Positions 1-27,814 of a stretch of 27,814 bases of DNA are shown here, piece after piece (within the stretch, counting starts at the first letter, position 1; the number at the start of each line of letters is the position of its first letter). The DNA is from a virus. The notes under the pieces are model-generated. The model saw only the letters and a list, made by a program, of their open reading frames with translations. It made no database searches and was not told where the DNA came from. The stretch covers positions 1 to 27,814 of the IMG/VR virus record IMGVR_UViG_3300028801_000090; one strand, written 5' to 3'. Both the position numbers and the translations under genes were made by a program.

Positions 1-86
1 CCCGCGCCGCCCGCGCCGCCCGCGCCGCCCACGACGCCAGCGCCGCCCGCGCCGCCCTCGCCGCCAGCGCCGCCAGCGACGCCCTC
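1..86 (+). repeat. GCC/CGC-rich 9-bp tandem repeat inside coding sequence
   Basis: The first 86 bases are imperfect copies of a 9-base unit (cgcgccgcc and variants with cac, agc, gac or ctc). Read in the frame of the downstream gene they encode Ala-Ala-Arg triplets that drift into Ala-Ala-Ser and Ala-Ser-Asp. The period stays a multiple of three, so the frame is preserved. The array probably continues beyond the left edge. Confidence 0.8.
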
Positions 87-836
87 GTTACTTTCTCACC
101 GCTACACAGTTTTGCAGAGTGGTGCATCTATCGGCGCACCTGGTGGTGGACTGGTGAATTGTCCTGGTTCAGCACGACGCACGTAGGTGCGGTGCAATTA
201 CAGAAGCCGACTGTGCTTCATTGGAGCCAGCACGTATTCGATGCCTACGTTTCAGGGGCATGGCTGCTGGTATGGACAGACACCACCTTGTACTGGATCG
301 CAAAACCCACCGTGACGACAGAGCTTGTGAATGGTCGCAGACAACTGCACAACGCGACCGGTCCGACCTTGGAGTGCGACGTGCAGAATCTCTACTTCTG
401 GCACGGCGTGATGGTGCCGGCGTTCGTGGTAGTGAAGCCTGAGTGGATTACGCTCAAGCATATCGAGACCGAGGACAATGCCGAAGTACGCCGCGTGATG
501 ATCGAGCGTTATGGTACGGCGCGATACATCAAGGATTCAGGGGCTGAAGTGGTTCACGAACTTCCGGACAACTATTACGTCAAGGGGCTGCAAGGCGCGA
601 AGCTTTATCGCAAACCGCGCAAGGATGATTCAGACATCATCATGATCTCGGTCGCCAACTCCACGCCAGAGCCCGACGGTAGCATCAAGCAGTACATGCT
701 GCGCATACAGCCCGACGCGTACAACGGAGCAGCGGCCAAGGATTGTCACGCGGCCATGGCGTCTACGTGGCGGCGGCAGGATGGGACGCTGTATTTCAGC
801 AAGCCGCAGGACTACCGCCCCGAGTTTGAATCATGA
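1..836 (+). CDS. DUF6745-family protein, 5' end outside window
   Basis: The reading frame (first full codon at position 3) is open to the left edge, so the true start lies outside the window; the first start-like codon in it, TTG at 159, falls inside the domain and should not be used. The visible part begins with an Ala-Ala-Arg/Ala-Ser repeat (to about position 86), then a Trp-rich stretch, then a C-terminal domain I recognise as DUF6745: LHNATGP, a WHG..VP segment, PEWIT, a NAEVRRVMIERYG block (around 480-515), ANSTPEPDG and a closing YRPEFES. Family members often carry long low-complexity repeats before this domain, which fits. The domain is known from actinobacteria and phages and has no established biochemical role. 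The gene heads a run of small accessory genes and overlaps the next one by ATGA. The family call is from memory of its motifs; function unknown. Confidence 0.75.
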   Translation, partial: RAARAARAAHDASAARAALAASAASDALVTFSPLHSFAEWCIYRRTWWWTGELSWFSTTHVGAVQLQKPTVLHWSQHVFDAYVSGAWLLVWTDTTLYWIAKPTVTTELVNGRRQLHNATGPTLECDVQNLYFWHGVMVPAFVVVKPEWITLKHIETEDNAEVRRVMIERYGTARYIKDSGAEVVHELPDNYYVKGLQGAKLYRKPRKDDSDIIMISVANSTPEPDGSIKQYMLRIQPDAYNGAAAKDCHAAMASTWRRQDGTLYFSKPQDYRPEFES

Positions 837-6220: not shown

Positions 6221-6456
6221 TTGGGCTTCTCCGGCTTTTCCTTCTGCCCGTGGTAAAGCGCGTCTTTCATCTCCTTCTGTTCATCGGCGTAGTAGTCCGC
6301 CTCAGCCCTAAGATCGGCAGAACGCTTGGCATCGGGCTCCTGCATCGCTTCCCGGTGCAGCGTGTCGCTACGCTCGCCCAAGGCGTGCACAGCAGCTTCA
6401 CCGGTAGACTGACGGATGTGTATCCAGATCCAGCGGATTAAGTGCTTGACGGTCAT
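6217..6456 (-). CDS. Hypothetical helical protein before endolysin, 79 aa
   Basis: The ATG overlaps the tailspike stop (ATGA) and its own stop overlaps the endolysin start. The first 15 residues are hydrophobic and aromatic (MTVKHLIRWIWIHIRQ), perhaps a membrane-associated amphipathic helix; the rest is charged and helical, rich in Ala, Glu, Asp and Lys (RSADLRAEADYYADEQKEM), ending KEKPEKPK. No family is recognised. Its position suggests a tail-to-lysis linking role, such as a spike chaperone or antiholin, without direct evidence. Confidence 0.6.
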   Translation of the reverse strand: MTVKHLIRWIWIHIRQSTGEAAVHALGERSDTLHREAMQEPDAKRSADLRAEADYYADEQKEMKDALYHGQKEKPEKPK

Positions 6457-8420
6457 GCGAGAAGGATGCCGCGCGCCTTGAGTGCCAGTAATATCTCGGC
6501 CACTGCGCCACTGGTCTGCAGCAACGTTGCAGTCGCCCCTGGAAAGTTCGTGGTGATGGTGTTACCCGTCGGAGTGCCGAAGCCGGAAGCATAGGGCGCT
6601 ACATTGCAGGCCCAACTCGTGCCATCCACGCCATTGCCGCCAAATGTCCAATTCGCGGAATTTCCTATGAGGACACAGTTACCGGTGACAGCCGCCACAG
6701 CACCCAAGCCGCTGCCGATGTTCAAAACCATGCTGCCGGTCAGAAGGAAACTCTGTCCTGAGAGCTGACCGGGAATGTTCAGGCCCTGACTCGTGGCCTC
6801 ACTGATGCGTGATACCCAAAGACCATTGAGAGTGACGTTGGCATCATGAGCACCAATCGCTGCCCCCCCTGAAGCATTGGAATAGAGCTTGCAGTCATGG
6901 ATGGAGATAGCGACGTTCGTCATCGACGACGCAGCGGCGCCGAAGTAAATGGCATAGGTCGGTAACGTCGCGGCTCGCTCAGTCGAGCAACCGATGAAAC
7001 TGCAGTCCGAACTGAAGCCGTAGGTCTGATCAAAGTACACGCCTGACCGACAGCCGTTCGCAGAGCACCACAGGTTACTGGCCCGGAAAGACGCGACTTC
7101 ATCAAGGCACAAGCAGTCGGAAGTGTTCGTACCTGAGTTGATAGCCAGGTCTGTGTCAGTGAAGCGGATGACCGTGGTGGAGGCTGGCGTCGGCACCGGG
7201 TTGTAAATCGTGGTGAACGGGGACGACAGGCCCGCGTTGTTGTTCGCGGTGCAGACTGCCGCTCGCGCCCCGGCAGCGGGGTTGAAGTTATTGAAATAGC
7301 ACCCGTTCACCAGCAGGTTTTCAGAACCGAAATTGTAGAAGCAGGCCACCGAGAAATAGCCAACAATCTTGACGCTCTTCAGCTGATTGATGAGGCTGCC
7401 GCCGGTGTTGTTGCGGGCCAAAAGTATCCCGGTCTGTGGAAATAGGTTGCTCGTCGGGATGGCGGTCCCGATAGTGAGATCCTCAAAGATGATGTTGTCA
7501 TTACCGGTGCAATCAAAGATGGCAACGCCGTTGTGCTGGGCAATCACCTGATACGTCTGGTCCTTACCGCCGATGCCGCGCACAAGAACCGGATTCTGGT
7601 TGGCACCACCGGTGAACGTACAATTGATGGGCGCTGACACAAAGTAGGGTCCGCCTGTCAGTTCCAGTCGACCGCCGGTCTGCGCGATAACGTAATAGGC
7701 CGTCTGGATGGCCGACGTCATGTCGGTAGTGCCTGGCGTTGTGTTCACCGTATAGCGCTCAGGCCGCCCCACGGCTGCAAAGAAATTCGCCACCGAACCG
7801 CCATACAGGCCGAACACGGTAGTTTCGGTCGCCGTCTGCGCGTAAGGCGTGCTTGAACCTAAGAACGTGTTGAACTGTGACTGCGGAGTCACCGCATACA
7901 TCGCGTTGAAGGTCGCCTGCGTCAGCGCATTAAGCAGCGGAACTGCGACTGTCGGGAGCCCATTGCTGTCGAATCCGAGCAGCGTATTGGCGCGAGCGGA
8001 TGCATTCGGCAGCATCGTCCACGGAGTGAGTTCCGTATCCGGCCCGTGGAAGCCGAACGTCAGAACCTGTCGCACGACGTCCTGCAATGCACGGGTCAGC
8101 CGGTCCATGCCGTTGGTGGTGTTCTCCGGCAGGTAGGCCGTGAGATTCGCAAACTCCGTGGGCTGGATCTCGGGCACCGCGGTGCGCAGGTCGACTGTCG
8201 TATTAAGGGGCGGGGCTGTGGTGAAGGTGACCTGTCCGCCGCCATTAACGCCTACGCCAGATACGGTGTAGCCGGTCGTCTGGAGTTGATACACCCCGCC
8301 CGTGATGAAGCCGACGACAAGGTCGGTGGTGGCGAAGATCTTCCACGGGAAGCTGAAGGTAACGGCCGTGCCGTTGCCTGCGTACTCAACTGGGGAAGAG
8401 TTTCCTAGCGCTATAGTCAT
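6453..8420 (-). CDS. Tailspike / tail fibre with beta-helix depolymerase-like domain, 655 aa
   Basis: Residues 1-110 look like the T7 tail-fibre N-terminal anchor: YAGNGTAVTFSFPWKIF, then VTFTTAPPLNTTVDLRT. A linker (110-210) follows. Around residues 220-265 a pectate-lyase-superfamily entry motif appears (TTDMTSAIQTAYYV, GGRLEL, GGPYFVSAP), followed by several hundred residues of short repeating strands rich in Asn, Gly and Ser, as in right-handed parallel beta-helices. The C-terminus is small and hydrophobic (LLALKARGILLA). The protein would trimerise, bind the tail through the N-terminus and recognise or degrade a surface polysaccharide. Catalytic residues cannot be picked by eye. Many Cys residues (DCLCLDE, NGCRSG, DCSFIGC) are unusual for a spike. 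Confidence 0.8.
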   Translation of the reverse strand: MTIALGNSSPVEYAGNGTAVTFSFPWKIFATTDLVVGFITGGVYQLQTTGYTVSGVGVNGGGQVTFTTAPPLNTTVDLRTAVPEIQPTEFANLTAYLPENTTNGMDRLTRALQDVVRQVLTFGFHGPDTELTPWTMLPNASARANTLLGFDSNGLPTVAVPLLNALTQATFNAMYAVTPQSQFNTFLGSSTPYAQTATETTVFGLYGGSVANFFAAVGRPERYTVNTTPGTTDMTSAIQTAYYVIAQTGGRLELTGGPYFVSAPINCTFTGGANQNPVLVRGIGGKDQTYQVIAQHNGVAIFDCTGNDNIIFEDLTIGTAIPTSNLFPQTGILLARNNTGGSLINQLKSVKIVGYFSVACFYNFGSENLLVNGCYFNNFNPAAGARAAVCTANNNAGLSSPFTTIYNPVPTPASTTVIRFTDTDLAINSGTNTSDCLCLDEVASFRASNLWCSANGCRSGVYFDQTYGFSSDCSFIGCSTERAATLPTYAIYFGAAASSMTNVAISIHDCKLYSNASGGAAIGAHDANVTLNGLWVSRISEATSQGLNIPGQLSGQSFLLTGSMVLNIGSGLGAVAAVTGNCVLIGNSANWTFGGNGVDGTSWACNVAPYASGFGTPTGNTITTNFPGATATLLQTSGAVAEILLALKARGILLA

Positions 8421-18521: not shown

Positions 18522-19064
18522 CTAAACCGCCCGTGCGATCGGATTCCGAGCGTCCGGATCGACGATGGTCCTCCAGCGAGCATTGACTACTGCAACATCG
18601 GTGCGCGGGACCGCGGTCTTCGCCCCGTCCTCGTGTACAGTGACTGTGACAGGCTCATACGGGTCATCCGACCACAGCACCGGAACGTCGACCTCGAAAA
18701 TGCTGACCGGCTGGCCCATCTTGTTGTCCGGGCCGTACTGGTAACTGCCGATGACGCAGTCGGTTCTCGCGCGCACCGTCCCCTTGTAGGGGACGAACTT
18801 CGGAGGGACCCCCCGTAGTGGCGCGGTGGCTCTGGAAGCCCCCGGGCGCAGAGCCTCCAGTTCCGCCTCCGCTTCTCTCAGACGCCGCGCCATCTCAGGG
18901 TCAGGCTGAGCGGGCTTTGCGGCGAAAGCCGCCTCGAGCTTTGCGAGACGCTCTGCCAGGGCTTCATTCTGGGCCTTGGTCTCGGTGAGTTCGGCAGATA
19001 AGGTTTCACGCGAAGGTCCCGGCGGGCGCCCTCCTTTGTTCCTCAGGGCTTCTGGTTCTGTCAT
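18522..19064 (-). CDS. Hypothetical head-region protein with coiled coil, 180 aa
   Basis: ATG 19064 has AGGAG ten bases upstream. The N-terminus is basic with a GGRPPGP segment resembling an AT-hook-type turn; residues 20-75 form a heptad-rich coiled coil (ETKAQNEALAERLAKLEAAF, REAEAELEAL); the C-terminal 100 residues look like a folded beta domain (KFVPYKGTVRARTDCVIG, VSIFEVDVPVLW, VNARWRTIVDP). No family is recognised. The combination of basic tip, coiled coil and beta domain is unlike the neighbouring decoration-like proteins. Confidence 0.6.
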   Translation of the reverse strand: MTEPEALRNKGGRPPGPSRETLSAELTETKAQNEALAERLAKLEAAFAAKPAQPDPEMARRLREAEAELEALRPGASRATAPLRGVPPKFVPYKGTVRARTDCVIGSYQYGPDNKMGQPVSIFEVDVPVLWSDDPYEPVTVTVHEDGAKTAVPRTDVAVVNARWRTIVDPDARNPIARAV

Positions 19065-21524: not shown

Positions 21525-22169
21525 TCAGCTCGGGTTTACGCCGTAGAGCTTTTCCTGGGCGCGCTCGCGCAAGCTGCGGTTGTCCACAGGCTTTGGCGGG
21601 GGTTCCGGGCGGCCGAGGTCGTCCTCGGACAAAAGCTCACCAACCAGACGCATCGCATTGGTGAAAACGGGGTCGTTCAGCTGCCGCTTTGCGACTTCGC
21701 GGAACTTAGGATCGAAGGAGGCGAACCAGCCCACCGCGGTCTTCGCGGCAGCGAGTTCTTCGGACGAGAACGTGGCCTTACAAGCCGCTTCATTGGTCCG
21801 ATTGGTGTCCTCTATCGTCTTGAGCCACTGGGCATTCGCATCGCGCGCAAGTTCGACGTAGAGGTCCGCAGTCTTCTGCCTCGATTCGGGCGGGTAGCTC
21901 TTCAGGGCTTCCGTGAACTTCGTCACCATGCTTTCGGGTGGCTTGAAGTCATCGGGGAGCGTGAAGAGCGGTGCGTCCGGATCAGTCTTGGCGAGCTCTG
22001 CCTTCGGGGGTTCTGCGGGTGCTTCGGCTTTTGCGGGCTCAGAGCCTGTCTGAGGTTCCGCGGGCTTGGCTTCCGTTACCGGGGCAGGATCAGCGGGTGT
22101 AGCGGTGGGCGCAGCTGCAGGTTCTGCAGCCGGGGGAGTGCTTGAATTTCCCGGTTCGCCTTCGGCCAC
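21525..22169 (-). CDS. Capsid scaffold / assembly protein, 214 aa
   Basis: GTG 22169 has GGAG seven bases upstream. The first 65 residues are low-complexity (Pro, Ala, Glu, Lys, Thr: AKAEAPAEPPKAELAK), and the rest is charged and helical (SRQKTADLYVELARDANAQW, SSEELAAAKTAVGWF, SLRERAQEKLYG). Position directly before the capsid gene, acidic/helical composition and size fit a scaffold, which would guide procapsid assembly and leave before maturation. It is the first gene of the capsid block after the antisense HTH gene. Confidence 0.75.
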   Translation of the reverse strand: MAEGEPGNSSTPPAAEPAAAPTATPADPAPVTEAKPAEPQTGSEPAKAEAPAEPPKAELAKTDPDAPLFTLPDDFKPPESMVTKFTEALKSYPPESRQKTADLYVELARDANAQWLKTIEDTNRTNEAACKATFSSEELAAAKTAVGWFASFDPKFREVAKRQLNDPVFTNAMRLVGELLSEDDLGRPEPPPKPVDNRSLRERAQEKLYGVNPS

Positions 22170-22420: not shown

Positions 22421-22840
22421 TTTCTTCTTCGAGGTTTCCGGCTTCGGCCGCTCGCGCTCAAGTTCCGAGCGCACACGAAACCATAAACTGAGTTCTACGT
22501 CACATATCCACTGCTCCAGCTGATAGGCAATGGAGCGCCTACCTGCGATCTCGCACATGACGCTGTTGGAAGGGCTCCAGTACGGCGCATTCCATCCACA
22601 GGGACCCGCGATTACCCGCGCCACGAACCGCACGCCTTCATCGGTTGCCAGAATCGCCCTGAGATCATTTTCGGCCTGCAGGTCCTTCTGCTTGTCCGAG
22701 AGCGCCTTTTCCTTGAGCGCTTTCGGGTCATTGGACTTCTGCGGTCTGTCGAGAAACTTATCCGTCGGATCAGGTTTCTTCCCCGGTTCAAAGAGACTCT
22801 CGGCCGATGTGGCAGGACCTGCGGCTTCTTCCTCCGTCAT
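22412..22840 (-). CDS. Bbp19-like phage protein, 142 aa
   Basis: The ATG overlaps the portal stop (ATGA). The N-terminus is charged and disordered; the conserved part begins at about residue 55 (AENDLRAILATDEGVRFVARVI), the DLR.VL.T.EG.R signature of the Bbp19 family, followed by CGWNAPYWSPSNSVMCEIAGRRSIAYQL, which matches the family's G.R.....L pattern. Members lie between portal and scaffold genes in BPP-1-like phages; their role is not known. The end is basic (KPETSKKKSG). Confidence 0.75.
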   Translation of the reverse strand: MTEEEAAGPATSAESLFEPGKKPDPTDKFLDRPQKSNDPKALKEKALSDKQKDLQAENDLRAILATDEGVRFVARVIAGPCGWNAPYWSPSNSVMCEIAGRRSIAYQLEQWICDVELSLWFRVRSELERERPKPETSKKKSG

Positions 22841-24765
22841 GCGCCCTGCCCGGCCCCAATAGCTTTAGCGATGTCCCCAAGGCCCCCTGAGGCGCCGGCA
22901 TCGGCTGCGCTCTTGAGCGCTCCTGCGTGCGCCTGCATCGTCTGGGCGGCCTGTGCCTGCTGCTCGAGCTGAGCTTGTTTCGCCTGCACCTGCGCACGCT
23001 GGGAGCGGATCTGTTTGACCGTCGCATCATCGCGCACGCATTCCGGAGGCGCCCCCACCGCTGCCGCATACTTCTCAATCGACATGTCCGCATCCCACTT
23101 ATCCAGCGCGGGGTTATTGGCCATCTGCTCGGCCTGCGCGACCTGCAGCACGTATTGGGTCAGCTGCTGAATCGACTGGGCGGTTACTGCATTGATGGCT
23201 TGCGCGAGAATTGAGATGTACTTCACACGAATGGACGCGCCCTTCAAAGCCGGCGGCGGGGGCGGAAACTTCCCATGCCGAAGACACTCAGCAAAGAGCC
23301 AGTCGTGCAGCGGGTTGAACAGATCAAAGTTCATCTGCCCCAATACCGGGCCTAGCATCAGCAGCTTCTCTTGCTGCTTGGCGTTGACTTCCGCCGCGGT
23401 CTCCTTCTGCCCACCGGGAGAATCCCGCTCTGCCTGAATGAAGAGAGCGAATATATCGGCGTGGCAGATGCCATTGATGCGTCCCTGGGTTTCCTTGATA
23501 TCGGCGAGTAAGTCCTGCGTTTCTGGCTTGATGAGGTAGGCGGGCTCAAAGCCGATTTTATTCCCGTCGGGAGCCGCAAACGTCACATCCCCGGGCAGCT
23601 GGCTCGTGCGTTGATTGCGCAACGAGGGATGGGCCACCATCGGGGGGTCGACATGCTTATCGATGGCCTGCGCTTTGCGCTTCTGCTGAAGCTGAAGCGC
23701 GCGGGCGTCGCCGAGACAATCCATGGCAGGACCGCGGCCCCAGGCGTCTTCGGAATTCGTGTACCAGCGCGCACAGAAGACCGGGAAGTCCCTGAATCCA
23801 CCCACGCGCAGCAGCTTCTTTTCATCCTCCGCCTGCCCTTCAGTCTTCTGGGCGCTGTTTTTCAAAACCTTATCGGGTTCACCACCGCGCTCGTAGGTGA
23901 CGGATCTGAAGCGCATCCCGCGAGGGCCCAAGGCGCCGGGCTTGTACTCGGGGTTTTCCTCCACCGCGTGAACGAGTGACACCCAGCTATCGCGCTGGTT
24001 CTGCTCCCACTGTCCGCGCACGTAACGGGAGATATTCACCCACGTCTCTTCCTTGCGCGGGTCAAAAGTCCCATCAGCCTGCTTGACGGAGAACTTCTCC
24101 ACGACCTGCTGAACCGTCCAGCGATAGTCGCGAAACCACGTATTAACCCTGCGATGACGGTCGTTGCCGATGTAATAGCTGCCGATCGTGAAGGGTTGGA
24201 AGTGCGGGATGTCATCCTCCCCATTCTTAGGCAGCGGCCACTCGCGTCCCAACGCCATGATCCCAAACACCGGGTATTCGCCGAAGCACTCCGACAGCGC
24301 GTTATAGAAGTTCGAGCGTGAGAGAAGATCGCGAACGATCTTTGTCGTAGCTGACAACCATTCCTTGACCCCCTTGGCTTCCATGAGAGCGTCGTCCGTG
24401 AGTTCGTACGCGAACCACGGGCGTGCTTCCGATGCGGTCCCGGACATCAGTCCCGCCTGACAGGTATTGATGGCCGATAGTGGGGTTGAGTCGACAATGG
24501 CCCAGTTACGCCGCCAGCCGCGATTTGTGTCCCACGCATCATTCACCATGAAGCGACCGCGGTATGGCCGAAAATTCTCACTTAAATCACGCCAATTTGG
24601 ATACCAGGTCATCCGATCAATATTCAGCATCGACTTGCGGCGCTCGAGTCTCACTTTGAGAGCTTCCGGTATCCCGCCGCGCTTGCGATTTCTCTGACGC
24701 AAGGCGGATGAAGGCTGTACGAGCCCCTCATCCGGCGTCATGTAACCCATCCGTGTGTCGAGCAT
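22837..24765 (-). CDS. Portal (head-to-tail connecting protein), 642 aa
   Basis: Recognised as the head-to-tail connecting family of T7-like/BPP-1-like phages: WRDLSENFRPYRGRF (residues about 58-72), INTCQAGLMSGTASEARPWF (99-118), VKEWLSATTKIVRDLLSRSN, the SECFGEYPVFGIMALG stretch, then FQPFTIGSYYIGNDRHRRV and the long helical stem. The C-terminal 70 residues are Gln/Ala-rich and coiled (QAKQAQLEQQAQAAQTMQ), as in the portal barrel. Twelve copies would form the DNA entry vertex and the base for the adaptor. Length is in the family range. Confidence 0.9.
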   Translation of the reverse strand: MLDTRMGYMTPDEGLVQPSSALRQRNRKRGGIPEALKVRLERRKSMLNIDRMTWYPNWRDLSENFRPYRGRFMVNDAWDTNRGWRRNWAIVDSTPLSAINTCQAGLMSGTASEARPWFAYELTDDALMEAKGVKEWLSATTKIVRDLLSRSNFYNALSECFGEYPVFGIMALGREWPLPKNGEDDIPHFQPFTIGSYYIGNDRHRRVNTWFRDYRWTVQQVVEKFSVKQADGTFDPRKEETWVNISRYVRGQWEQNQRDSWVSLVHAVEENPEYKPGALGPRGMRFRSVTYERGGEPDKVLKNSAQKTEGQAEDEKKLLRVGGFRDFPVFCARWYTNSEDAWGRGPAMDCLGDARALQLQQKRKAQAIDKHVDPPMVAHPSLRNQRTSQLPGDVTFAAPDGNKIGFEPAYLIKPETQDLLADIKETQGRINGICHADIFALFIQAERDSPGGQKETAAEVNAKQQEKLLMLGPVLGQMNFDLFNPLHDWLFAECLRHGKFPPPPPALKGASIRVKYISILAQAINAVTAQSIQQLTQYVLQVAQAEQMANNPALDKWDADMSIEKYAAAVGAPPECVRDDATVKQIRSQRAQVQAKQAQLEQQAQAAQTMQAHAGALKSAADAGASGGLGDIAKAIGAGQGA

Positions 24766-24769
24766 GGCT

Positions 24770-25063
24770 TTAGCTCTCTGGCTTCATCTTCACGCGATCC
24801 AGCACGGCGTGCGGCGTCTGCTCTTCCCGGGTGCCGGAATTGCCGTGACGCTTCGCATCCGCATTCGGGTGAGTAGCATCCGCATAGCCACCCCCGGGCA
24901 GATGGCCTACGGTTTCCTTGTGGTGGTGCGCGATACCGCCACGGTGATGCACCGGGAATCCCCCGAGGACGGGGTCAACTTCGCGCGCATCGGGGGTTGA
25001 GGTCTGTCGAGGACGTGCGCGTAGCGTCTCGCGATACCCTTTACCGGACTTGTAGTCGCTCAT
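24770..25063 (-). CDS. His-rich small protein before portal, 97 aa
   Basis: ATG 25063 is fixed by AGGAG eight bases upstream; the frame is open further but that part overlaps the previous gene and is Arg/Ser-rich. The product is charged, Gly/His-rich and probably disordered (MSDYKSGKGYRETLRARP, then VHHRGGIAHHHKETVGH and DATHPNADAKRHGNSG), ending DRVKMKPES. About ten His lie in 97 residues. The clusters could bind metal or nucleic acid. No family is recognised. The stop (TAA) lies four bases before the portal start. Confidence 0.6.
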   Translation of the reverse strand: MSDYKSGKGYRETLRARPRQTSTPDAREVDPVLGGFPVHHRGGIAHHHKETVGHLPGGGYADATHPNADAKRHGNSGTREEQTPHAVLDRVKMKPES

Positions 25064-25073
25064 GAGAGTTCTC

Positions 25074-26315
25074 CTAGAAGACAAAACGGACGGGTGGGAT
25101 GGGGTCTGAGATCGGCAACAAGGGCGTCGGTTGCGCGGTGGCAAGGGTGAAGAGCGGGGTCGTTGAGGGAACCTGCATCATCCAGCCAAACTGCTGCGTG
25201 GCTGAGTGAGGCCCGTAGTTCACGTTGTAAGCGCTGTAGTCGGATGCGAAGGCGATATCGAACACATCCCCGATCTGGTGATAGATCCCACCGTAAGTGC
25301 CGGGCTGCACCGCTACGCAGCGGAAACCGGTATTGGGCGGCGTCGGAGGCGGTAAGAAAATCGCCGCCACATTCGGGAAATCGAAGTGCTCCTGAGTCTT
25401 CGCCCCACGCCACTGGAGAGATTCGTACTGCTGAAAGACAAAGGGTTTAGGCGCCTGATTCGGCGTGATCTGCGTGATGATGACGTTTGGGAAGTCGTAT
25501 GGCGCTTGTGGCGGCTGACGCTTGAACTGCAGATCCGGGAACGTCGACTGAACGAAGGGAGACGTGGGCTTTAGGTTCAACGCAACGACGTTCGGGAAGT
25601 CATACGTCGCCTGTGCCTGCTGGCGCTTGTAGCTGTAATCCTCGCTCTGACGCTGAACGAATGGCGCTTGCGCTGCAGCGATCCCCAGGATGAGTGCATT
25701 CGGGAAGACGAACGGGTCCTGTGCCGGTTGGCGTTTAAAGACCGGGGTGTACTGTTCCCCCTGCACCAGGGGTTCAGGTTGCGGCAGATAGATCGTCGAG
25801 CGGCCATATTGCCCGGAGAGCGAATCTCGATGCTTCAGCTGGTCATCAAAGAGTGTCGGGATGAAGGGCTTCGCACCAATCTGACTCAAGTTCGCGACGA
25901 GATTCGGAAGCGGAGACGTGTCCTGAATCTGACGCCGCGTATGAATGGCCGGCATCATGACAATGGACCCGGGCTGCCCGGGGACGATGTGCAGGCCAAA
26001 GACCGAGGTGAGCAGGTTCGGCGCGTCCGGCAGCTGACCCTTCATCGTCTCGCGGTGATAGGTCTCGCTGTTCGCGTCGAGATTCAGGACCGTGTTGAGC
26101 GAAGGCCCCGGATGGCGAACCAGAAGGTTCGGCAGCAGGTCCATCGTCTGGCCCTTGAGGGACTCGCGATGATAGACCTGGTTGGAGACGTCAAGATCGT
26201 ACTGAAGAGGCGGCGCAGTGAGTCCGGGACCTAAGTGAAACAGCAACAGGTTCGGTGGGGCAGAGGTGTCCTGCCACTGCCTGCGCCTGAATACGGGGGT
26301 ATGAATCACTGCCAT
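25074..26315 (-). CDS. Repeat protein with nine ~35-residue units and separate C-terminal domain, 413 aa
   Basis: Residues 1-330 divide by eye into nine units of 32-46 residues. Each contains a basic pair and Gln (KRQ, HRE or RRQ), a short spacer and a PNL/PNV/PNA element followed by hydrophobic residues and a Pro-rich loop, for example FKRQPPQAPYDFPNVI and YHRESLKGQTMDLLPNLL. Units 6-9 share a FDFPN/YDFPN core; units 2-3 have the YHRE..KGQ form. Residues 331-380 form a different domain (FRCVAVQPGTYGGIYHQIGD, VFDIAF, QQFGWMMQV) resembling small stand-alone phage proteins (PG.YGG.....GD.FD....GWM). The last 33 residues are Pro-rich. There is no signal peptide or TM segment. It lies in the head operon just before the portal module, so it is probably a virion protein; function unknown. 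Confidence 0.75.
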   Translation of the reverse strand: MAVIHTPVFRRRQWQDTSAPPNLLLFHLGPGLTAPPLQYDLDVSNQVYHRESLKGQTMDLLPNLLVRHPGPSLNTVLNLDANSETYHRETMKGQLPDAPNLLTSVFGLHIVPGQPGSIVMMPAIHTRRQIQDTSPLPNLVANLSQIGAKPFIPTLFDDQLKHRDSLSGQYGRSTIYLPQPEPLVQGEQYTPVFKRQPAQDPFVFPNALILGIAAAQAPFVQRQSEDYSYKRQQAQATYDFPNVVALNLKPTSPFVQSTFPDLQFKRQPPQAPYDFPNVIITQITPNQAPKPFVFQQYESLQWRGAKTQEHFDFPNVAAIFLPPPTPPNTGFRCVAVQPGTYGGIYHQIGDVFDIAFASDYSAYNVNYGPHSATQQFGWMMQVPSTTPLFTLATAQPTPLLPISDPIPPVRFVF

Positions 26316-26316
26316 A

Positions 26317-26625
26317 TCAGAACGGAGAGATGAACGGCAGCCCCTTCAGCGCTGCTTCCTGAGCTTCCTCCACCACCTTCTTGAAGGGCCTGCAAATACC
26401 TGTCAGGAAATAATCGGCCCCACACCCATCGCAGATGTGATGGTCACACTTCTTGCACCAGGATCGCGGACGCGTGCGTTTGGGATCGTTGATTACTACG
26501 CGCTGACAGTGATAACAGGTGAACGTCGATGTCTCAAAAAGCCCTCTCCCAGCCCCCGTCGGAAGACCCGCCTTGTGGACAAGCTCATCAGATACACCGG
26601 CCCCTGCGTGCCGGTGATCCGTCAT
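26317..26625 (-). CDS. Multi-CxxC zinc-binding protein, 102 aa
   Basis: I choose ATG 26625, with GAAGGG seven bases upstream; ATG 26658, three bases after the previous stop, would add 11 residues. The product has three CxxC knuckles: C37/C40 (CYHC), C57/C60 (CKKC) and C65/C68 (CDGC), plus C78 and the DHH pair at 61-63, arranged like a cross-brace zinc finger. The WCKKCDHHICDGCGA core resembles small phage zinc proteins found near structural genes, which have no assigned function. No catalytic motif is seen. Confidence 0.7.
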   Translation of the reverse strand: MTDHRHAGAGVSDELVHKAGLPTGAGRGLFETSTFTCYHCQRVVINDPKRTRPRSWCKKCDHHICDGCGADYFLTGICRPFKKVVEEAQEAALKGLPFISPF

Positions 26626-26661
26626 GAAATACCCTTCGTGGTCGCGTTTACTGCCCATAGT

Positions 26662-27814
26662 TCACATGAGGATGGTGCCAAGAAGCGGGAGAGTTACGAT
26701 GCCAGCGGTTTGGCTCAACACGCCAATCACAGCCTGAGCGCCATTGGTGTTCGCGTCCGTCCAGCCAAAGGCTGCAGACGGTGTGGCGCTACCGGCGTAG
26801 ATCTCATAACACTGTTCCGCACCAAAATTGGCAGTCGCGGTGTTCGAGATGTTGTTGACGTCGGTAAATCCGGTGCAGGCAAATCCTGCATTGGTAACGC
26901 CTACCGTCGTGTGCTGTGCGATGGCGGCCAGCGCTATGGCCGGTGGCGCTGCCAGCGACTGGCCGGAACTCGCCGTTAGGACGGACCCCGATGACCACAC
27001 GGCAGAAGCTGGCTGCGTCGGGTCTGCGGGACTTGCTGATGCGAGCCCTGAAATCTCAACGAGCGTGACCGAGCCAGTTGTGAAGTTGAACCCCGCAGAG
27101 GCAAAGGACACCTTGACGGTGTGAGAGCCAGCCACGACGGTGCCGCCCGGCAGGTACCAGATCCCGGCCCCGAGGTTACTCACCGTCCCCACGAGCACGC
27201 CGGGCGGCGTCTCAAGCGCCGTGAGTGCTGTGCTATAGGTCGTGTCTACGCACGTCGGCACCGGATGACCCCCGCCGGCGGACGTATTGAAGTAAGAGGC
27301 AATGCAGACGATGGTGTTACCTGCCGTCACGCCGTTGATGGTGACGACAATATCTGTGGCATTGCTGACCGTCTGACCGTTGACTGACTGGACGACCGCG
27401 ATTGAGGGCGCTACGTATTCAGCAAACGCCACCGCGAAAGTGGTGAACGTATCGGTGCCATGGATCGTCGTGAAATTGGCAAGCGCGTTGCCTGTGGCAG
27501 TGACGCGGGCATCCTCAAAAGCCTGGCCCGTGTTCTGGGAGGCCCCGTAACGTAAGGTGAAGGCGAGCGGGGAAGTCCCGGCAGCCGACACATTGTTTTG
27601 ATTGATATCGTAGGTATACCCGAGGAGTAGCGCCGGCTGTGTCGAGACATTGACGTTGTTCGACGTAATTGCATTCGTGCCGGTCCCCGGTGATGCCTGC
27701 GTGTTCTTCGTGGCAACGCCGATATAGGAAGCAAGCCCGGAGTACTCCGCAACCACCATGTTGCAGGTGCCGGGAGTGCCACCATTGAACGTCGCGGTAA
27801 GCGTCGTGATACCG
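26662..27814 (-). CDS. Tandem beta-sandwich (Ig-like) protein, 5' end outside window
   Basis: The frame continues past the right edge without a stop (codons before the ATG at 27759 read ITTLTATFNGGTPGTCN), so the visible 383 residues are the C-terminal part. Two copies of one beta-sandwich unit can be aligned by eye: LTATFNGGTPGTCNMVVAEY-SGLAS and VKVSFASAGFNFTTGSVTLVEI-SGLAS, each followed by a Thr/Ser/Ala-rich section and a closing FAVAFAE or QAVIGVLS strand. A further linker starts VQSVNGQTVSNATDIVV. The composition suggests a secreted or surface-exposed structural protein such as a head fibre, decoration or adhesion protein. No signal peptide can be judged, since the start is missing. Confidence 0.7.
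   Translation of the reverse strand, partial: GITTLTATFNGGTPGTCNMVVAEYSGLASYIGVATKNTQASPGTGTNAITSNNVNVSTQPALLLGYTYDINQNNVSAAGTSPLAFTLRYGASQNTGQAFEDARVTATGNALANFTTIHGTDTFTTFAVAFAEYVAPSIAVVQSVNGQTVSNATDIVVTINGVTAGNTIVCIASYFNTSAGGGHPVPTCVDTTYSTALTALETPPGVLVGTVSNLGAGIWYLPGGTVVAGSHTVKVSFASAGFNFTTGSVTLVEISGLASASPADPTQPASAVWSSGSVLTASSGQSLAAPPAIALAAIAQHTTVGVTNAGFACTGFTDVNNISNTATANFGAEQCYEIYAGSATPSAAFGWTDANTNGAQAVIGVLSQTAGIVTLPLLGTILM

Follow-up and report, generated by a model that had tools for sequence, protein, structure and literature searches.

A nine-repeat phage protein with a Bbp15-like C-terminal domain encoded upstream of the portal gene

The phage of IMG/VR record IMGVR_UViG_3300028801_000090, which is known only from environmental DNA, encodes upstream of its portal gene a protein of 413 aa that is built from nine degenerate tandem units and ends in a domain related to small proteins of the Bbp15 type. 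The whole record (27.8 kb; 27,814 nucleotides) was analysed and is referred to here as the window. The repeat is undescribed in the databases searched, and the C-terminal domain belongs to a common, already known family of the capsid block. The best explanation, to which a probability of roughly 45% is given, is that the product of the gene is a rapidly evolving structural accessory of the virion, in which docking on the head or neck would be the task of the SH3-like Bbp15-type domain, and the nine units of about 36 residues, rich in Pro, Gln and aromatic residues, would extend outward as a stalk or as a multivalent binding array on the surface of the particle. The array would have been lengthened and diversified by the duplication and exchange of units.

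Nine degenerate units and their sequence

The repeat gene lies at 25074..26315 on the minus strand and begins with ATG; in two related phages (L007 and L008) the corresponding slot is occupied by a gene that shares the C-terminal domain. An overlapping plus-strand ORF of 188 aa (25668-26234) was set aside, as the minus-strand frame has both relatives and an operon context. When residues 1-330 were compared with themselves, 116 windows of fourteen residues exceeded the threshold, compared with 2.2±2.9 in 500 shuffles, none of which reached 116, and the best lags were 35, 71 and 38. An HMM of the nine units (35 positions, consensus vyhRqkgQdtfdfPNllalhlgPpqPfvqldfdd) returns nine domains in the 413-aa protein. 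The unit boundaries were set manually, and a unit that is part of the HMM therefore has no independent score in it; independence is provided by a leave-one-out test in which each unit was scored with a profile of the other eight against 1000 shuffles per unit, and eight of the nine units were recognised by the rest. The repeats are therefore statistically real, in line with the original prediction of nine degenerate units of about 35 residues over some 330 residues.

Three subtypes can be distinguished by eye. The first, RRQxQDTSxxPNL, is found in unit 1 (residues 8-46, 26178..26294; 0/1000 shuffles as good as the unit) and unit 4 (residues 125-159, 25839..25943; 0/1000). The second, HREsxKGQ...PN, is found in unit 2 (residues 47-84, 26064..26177; 1/1000), in unit 3 (residues 85-124, 25944..26063; 0/1000) and as a remnant in unit 5 (residues 160-191, 25743..25838). 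The third, KRQxxQxxxDFPN, comprises unit 6 (residues 192-227, 25635..25742; KRQxxQxxxFPN), unit 7 (residues 228-262, 25530..25634) and unit 8 (residues 263-300, 25416..25529), each with 0/1000, together with the degenerate unit 9 (residues 301-328, 25332..25415), which is truncated, ends in a Pro-rich linker and is the weakest pass (5/1000). All nine lie on the minus strand. At least two subtypes had been predicted, in units 2-3 and units 6-9; both groups are present, and units 1 and 4 make a third. Unit 5 was not recognised by the other eight (686/1000 shuffles as good) and lacks the FPN core, so it is a unit by position only, placed by spacing; a degenerate junction of this kind agrees with the boundary that had been suspected at this unit from its missing PN. 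The units are 28-40 residues long with a period of about 36, and by eye their anchors follow one another at distances of 38, 38, 40, 35, 32, 36, 35 and 38, that is, 32-40 residues apart.

No Pfam, NCBIfam or PHROGs family matched the whole protein up to E 10, in line with the initial failure to recognise the repeat, and these three collections gave no enzymatic or lectin domain. There was likewise no match among PDB sequences (E <= 10) or isolate phages (tblastn, E <= 1), and the unit HMM matched none of the other 3978 ORFs of the fetched loci, which include the N-terminal parts of the proteins in the same slot. As judged by these sequence searches, the repeat of about 36 residues is new to the databases covered.

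The repeat region contains 13% Pro and 10% Gln, and the AlphaFold model of the whole protein, made with four sequences, has a very low confidence (mean pLDDT 27), at which extended, folded and disordered states are indistinguishable. Together with the finding that the N-terminal parts of the relatives have no sequence in common, this suits the view of a disordered accessory protein under low constraint, tethered by its C-terminal domain, in which the repeats are a by-product of duplication. Against this, the units have kept their aromatic and charged residues and the Q + FPN pattern despite a DNA sequence that has diverged to 61-79% identity (first 38 bases of units 1, 4 and 6-8, compared in register), the compact genome of the phage has retained so large a gene, and two relatives also have a gene in the slot. 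A disordered by-product is thus considered rather unlikely.

A Bbp15-type domain at the C-terminus

The last 85 residues (residues 329-413; 25077..25331, minus strand) are common to the window protein and its counterparts in L007 and L008, with 48-59% identity and the ending DP[IV]PPxRFV[FY], which reads DPIPPxRFVF in the window. A profile of the three sequences, the A2 HMM, found a short ORF in L017 (MASKVRAKVPGYYGGIYRSKGDVFILSDDKHFSARWMDKV...; E 6e-6 in that genome, E 7e-6 against all ORFs), located downstream of the MCP gene and the gene next to it. Similar small proteins exist in L009, L010, L011, L013, L014 and L016 as well as in BPP-1 (Bbp15) and Shamal, and wherever a cement-type gene was read, the stand-alone protein directly follows the cement-type protein. 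The comparison of the C-domain profile with the stand-alone proteins gave an hhalign probability of 93, and a repeat profile comparison with a shuffled null gave a score of 30.2 against 8.7±1.8 (0/200). This bears out the prediction of a distinct C-terminal domain resembling short stand-alone phage proteins, and the profile evidence identifies the 85 residues as a diverged copy of a Bbp15-type small protein. The core VxA..GxYxG..GDxFxl..W is common to Bbp15 and the window domain. Bbp15, however, is a stand-alone protein whose gene comes after the cement gene, whereas the window domain is fused behind nine repeats (328 residues), carries an insertion ahead of the Trp, ends in a PIPPxRFVF tail, and is encoded upstream of the portal gene. 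Bbp15 is not mentioned in the BPP-1 head paper. In-frame deletions in a BPP-1 lysogen are on record for bbp16 and bbp17 (PMC3863775).

For the C-terminal domain, AlphaFold with twelve sequences modelled most of the core at a pLDDT of about 84 and arranged its short beta strands in an SH3-like way, so that a small SH3-like beta fold is predicted. Foldseek returned no match to this model with E <= 0.001 in PDB and BFVD. Several other candidates were rejected: membership of DUF7210 (PF23843), for which the domain scores 11.3-13.9 bits, below the curated cut-off of 27 bits; PDB matches to the C-domain profile (a fucose-binding lectin at E 0.6 and Pst1 at E 0.7), which are weak and were taken as chance; and isolate-phage matches of the L008 protein or of the C-domain by itself (to tape measure and internal virion proteins at E 4-10), which are at chance level.

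A second, diverged Bbp15-type domain is encoded in the window itself. It sits after the coiled coil of a 180-aa protein downstream of the MCP gene (18522..19064, minus strand; profile score 17.0 vs 8.9±2.1 for the null, 0/200), and it is this gene, not the repeat gene, which fills the post-MCP position.

The predicted fold brings in the lambda packaging chaperone gpFI, which is described as being bound to the gpE lattice and as assisting the association of terminase and prohead (PMC4856287). gpFI has a small SH3-like C-terminal domain, and its gene likewise follows a capsid gene if Bbp15 is taken as the point of comparison, since Bbp15 comes after MCP and cement as FI comes after E. The repeat protein might then be an accessory of assembly or packaging, with a gpFI-like C-terminal domain on the capsid lattice and the repeats as a flexible arm that recruits partners; it would act during assembly, and exposure would not be needed. 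The slot of the repeat gene near the terminase and portal genes is compatible with such a role. In structural comparison, the C-domain model reached Z 3.8 over 50 residues with the C-terminal domain of gpFI (2lsm), a value which is tied with those of unrelated folds. The link to gpFI stays a lead because the sequence profiles do not support it: the hhalign probability is 0.2-0.3, and the score is equalled or exceeded by 57/200 and 59/200 shuffles. The repeat gene moreover lies outside the FI position, to which the domain copy at 19064..18522 is nearer, and a packaging factor would not normally be expected to have its N-terminal part swapped wholesale. A role in assembly or packaging is accordingly regarded as not very probable.

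A slot upstream of the portal gene with a replaceable N-terminal part

By sequence, the phage is a podovirus of the BPP-1/epsilon15 type. The portal, or head-to-tail connecting protein, is encoded at 22837..24765 on the minus strand (PF12236 E 7e-116, phrog_332 E 3.5e-133), and the MCP matches phrog_212, with relatives of 46-52% identity that include those of Limnohabitans phage DC33, the Caulobacter phages Jess A and BL94, Pseudomonas phage Shamal, phiV10 and TL-2011b. Internal virion proteins are also encoded. The gene order leads from a large He_PIG/fn3 protein (seen in L003, where it has 1195 aa with Ig-like He_PIG and fn3-like domains) to a surface-type protein of 462 aa in L003, cut by the contig end in the window (26662..27813, minus strand), then to a Zn-ribbon gene (26317..26658, minus strand; 113 aa) that is 1 base away from the repeat gene, and from the repeat gene to a small gene of 97 aa (MSDYKSGKGYRETLRAR...; 24770..25063, minus strand), which has counterparts in L007 and L008, and the portal gene. 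The repeat gene thus has surface-type genes on one side and the portal on the other; it lies in the structural block, among head genes as expected. The contig end at window positions 1-87 consists of a GC-rich 9/27-base tandem repeat.

A block of surface-type genes between terminase and portal is found in the group of the window phage, and most of the distant relatives have only one or two small genes there. In L008 and L003 this interval holds a GNAT-like gene (named by eye), as in BPP-1. A 158-aa protein encoded just upstream of the slot gene in L008 (L008:4357-4833) is 55% identical to one in L016 (L016:11377-11850); in the former phage the gene precedes the portal, in the latter it belongs to the post-MCP block, and it has therefore changed place. 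This shows that genes of the head block occur in the interval between surface genes and portal.

Relatives were sought with a DNA pattern of the C-tail, the C-domain, the portal, the N-terminal parts of L007 and L008, and the Zn-ribbon protein. Three further IMG/VR contigs carry a 100% identical repeat protein and are near-identical to the window over 5.2-7.6 kb; they come from one and the same phage and contribute no further diversity. Two other phages, with portals that are 73-75% identical, have a gene on the same strand in the same slot, encoding 455 aa (L007/L006) and 287 aa (L008), so that the C-domain fusion was found in three distinct phages only. Two scans of genome contigs found no further relative; they used few exact peptide patterns and so exclude little.

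While the C-terminal domain is conserved, the N-terminal parts of the three slot proteins do not align. The L007 protein has repeats of its own (37 windows vs 9.7±6.7 when shuffled), with the motif W[AST][LI][RA][DE]Y near residues 22, 93, 133, 279 and 350; these W[AST]LR[DE]Y repeats have spacings of 40, 71 and 146. The N-terminal part of the L008 protein is unrelated by sequence, and self-comparison found no internal repeats in it, which implies that repeats are dispensable for the role of the slot gene. In L048 (L048:5995-6945), a protein whose N-terminal part is 43% identical to the L008 type has a C-terminal part of another kind (fn3-like by eye), which on sequence grounds is evidence of module exchange. 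The slot gene is modular, as N-terminal parts are replaced over a conserved C-terminal domain and L048 pairs the L008-type N-terminal part with another C-terminal one.

These findings bear on two other roles. An internal scaffold or tape-like spacer, which the original prediction had entertained, would fit the regular period and the position among head genes. It is very unlikely, because a separate scaffold-type gene (22169..21525) precedes the MCP gene and the N-terminal part is replaceable, having been replaced in two relatives; the slot proteins differ in length (287, 413 and 455 aa) as well as in N-terminal sequence, and podoviruses are not known to have a tape measure. The neighbouring genes for large Ig/beta-helix-like surface proteins and the swapping of the N-terminal part between relatives could also point to a component of the tail rather than the head, one associated with receptor binding or a depolymerase, such as a spike adaptor. 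Here the C-terminal domain, which is related to genes of the capsid block and not to tail genes, argues the other way, as do the gene with a tail-protein N-terminus located elsewhere (8420..6453) and the family searches, which found no enzymatic or lectin domain; a tail component is quite improbable.

The accessory virion protein proposed here resembles the head fibres and decoration proteins of phages in being accessory, variable and encoded beside capsid genes, and an elongated design is plausible for it. It differs from them in having no sequence match to any annotated one, and its place on the virion is a prediction. The C-terminal domain is named as its putative 'anchor' because of gene position.

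Zn-ribbon genes and repeat proteins in other phages

A DNA scan for the motif of the upstream Zn-ribbon gene found 18 further phage contigs (L057-L074), of which several are overlapping copies and a few have no evident Zn-ribbon ORF at the match. The window protein and the copy in L069 are 33% identical over 63 residues (pairwise E 7e-7). In several contigs the Zn-ribbon gene (TFTCxHCQ...) clearly adjoins genes for beta-helix, collagen-like or repeat proteins.

The Zn-ribbon gene of L069 is followed directly by a gene for a 515-aa repeat protein (L069:1564-3111, minus strand), whose units number ten or eleven, measure 34-40 residues (about 38) and read DKWFAEASRPTYRK...; after it come a scaffold-like gene and the gene of a phrog_334 major head protein. 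Like the window protein, it thus comes directly after a Zn-ribbon gene, has units of about 38 residues and is encoded near scaffold-like and MCP genes. In contrast, its DKWFAEASRPTYRK... units have no detectable homology to those of the window, its C-terminus is unrelated, and its capsid lineage (phrog_334) is a different one; no match to it was found in isolate phages. L072 and L074 encode repeat proteins a few kb downstream of the Zn-ribbon gene, with units of 32-34 and 34-36 residues. The former (L072:3828-7538) has 1236 aa; its many 32-34-residue units read EREPxVDWLPxFPDFAR..., and its N-terminus holds two different Pro-rich units. The repeat protein of L074 (L074:5276-6361) and the large collagen-like ORFs of L058/L073 have similar-looking C-terminal parts, NAPFKPSGRDTHDGGHLRR....

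No homology was detectable between the unit profiles of L069, L072 and L074 and that of the window, or among the three, and column-shuffled nulls gave no support for homology between the window unit and the units of L007, L069, L072 and L074. Seen at a small number of loci and as raw co-occurrence, the similar period and setting across phages may reflect convergence or extreme divergence. A wider proposal is that these proteins, from phages unrelated to one another, make up a class of modular virion appendages not described before, occupying a slot in the head block, often by a TFTCxHCQ Zn-ribbon gene, in which tandem units of 32-40 residues rich in Pro and aromatic residues are remade in each lineage with period and setting persisting, and in which the C-terminal parts are exchangeable (Bbp15-type here, others in L048 and L069). 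It is put forward tentatively, as somewhat doubtful.

With no match in the databases, the repeat offers structural studies a clean target, and it also lends itself to testing whether the number and sequence of units tune binding to the host or the environment. If the C-terminal domain is a dock on the capsid or neck, a function would emerge for the Bbp15-type proteins whose genes adjoin the capsid genes in many podoviruses, and it would become clear how phages fix quickly evolving surface modules to a head that stays conserved.
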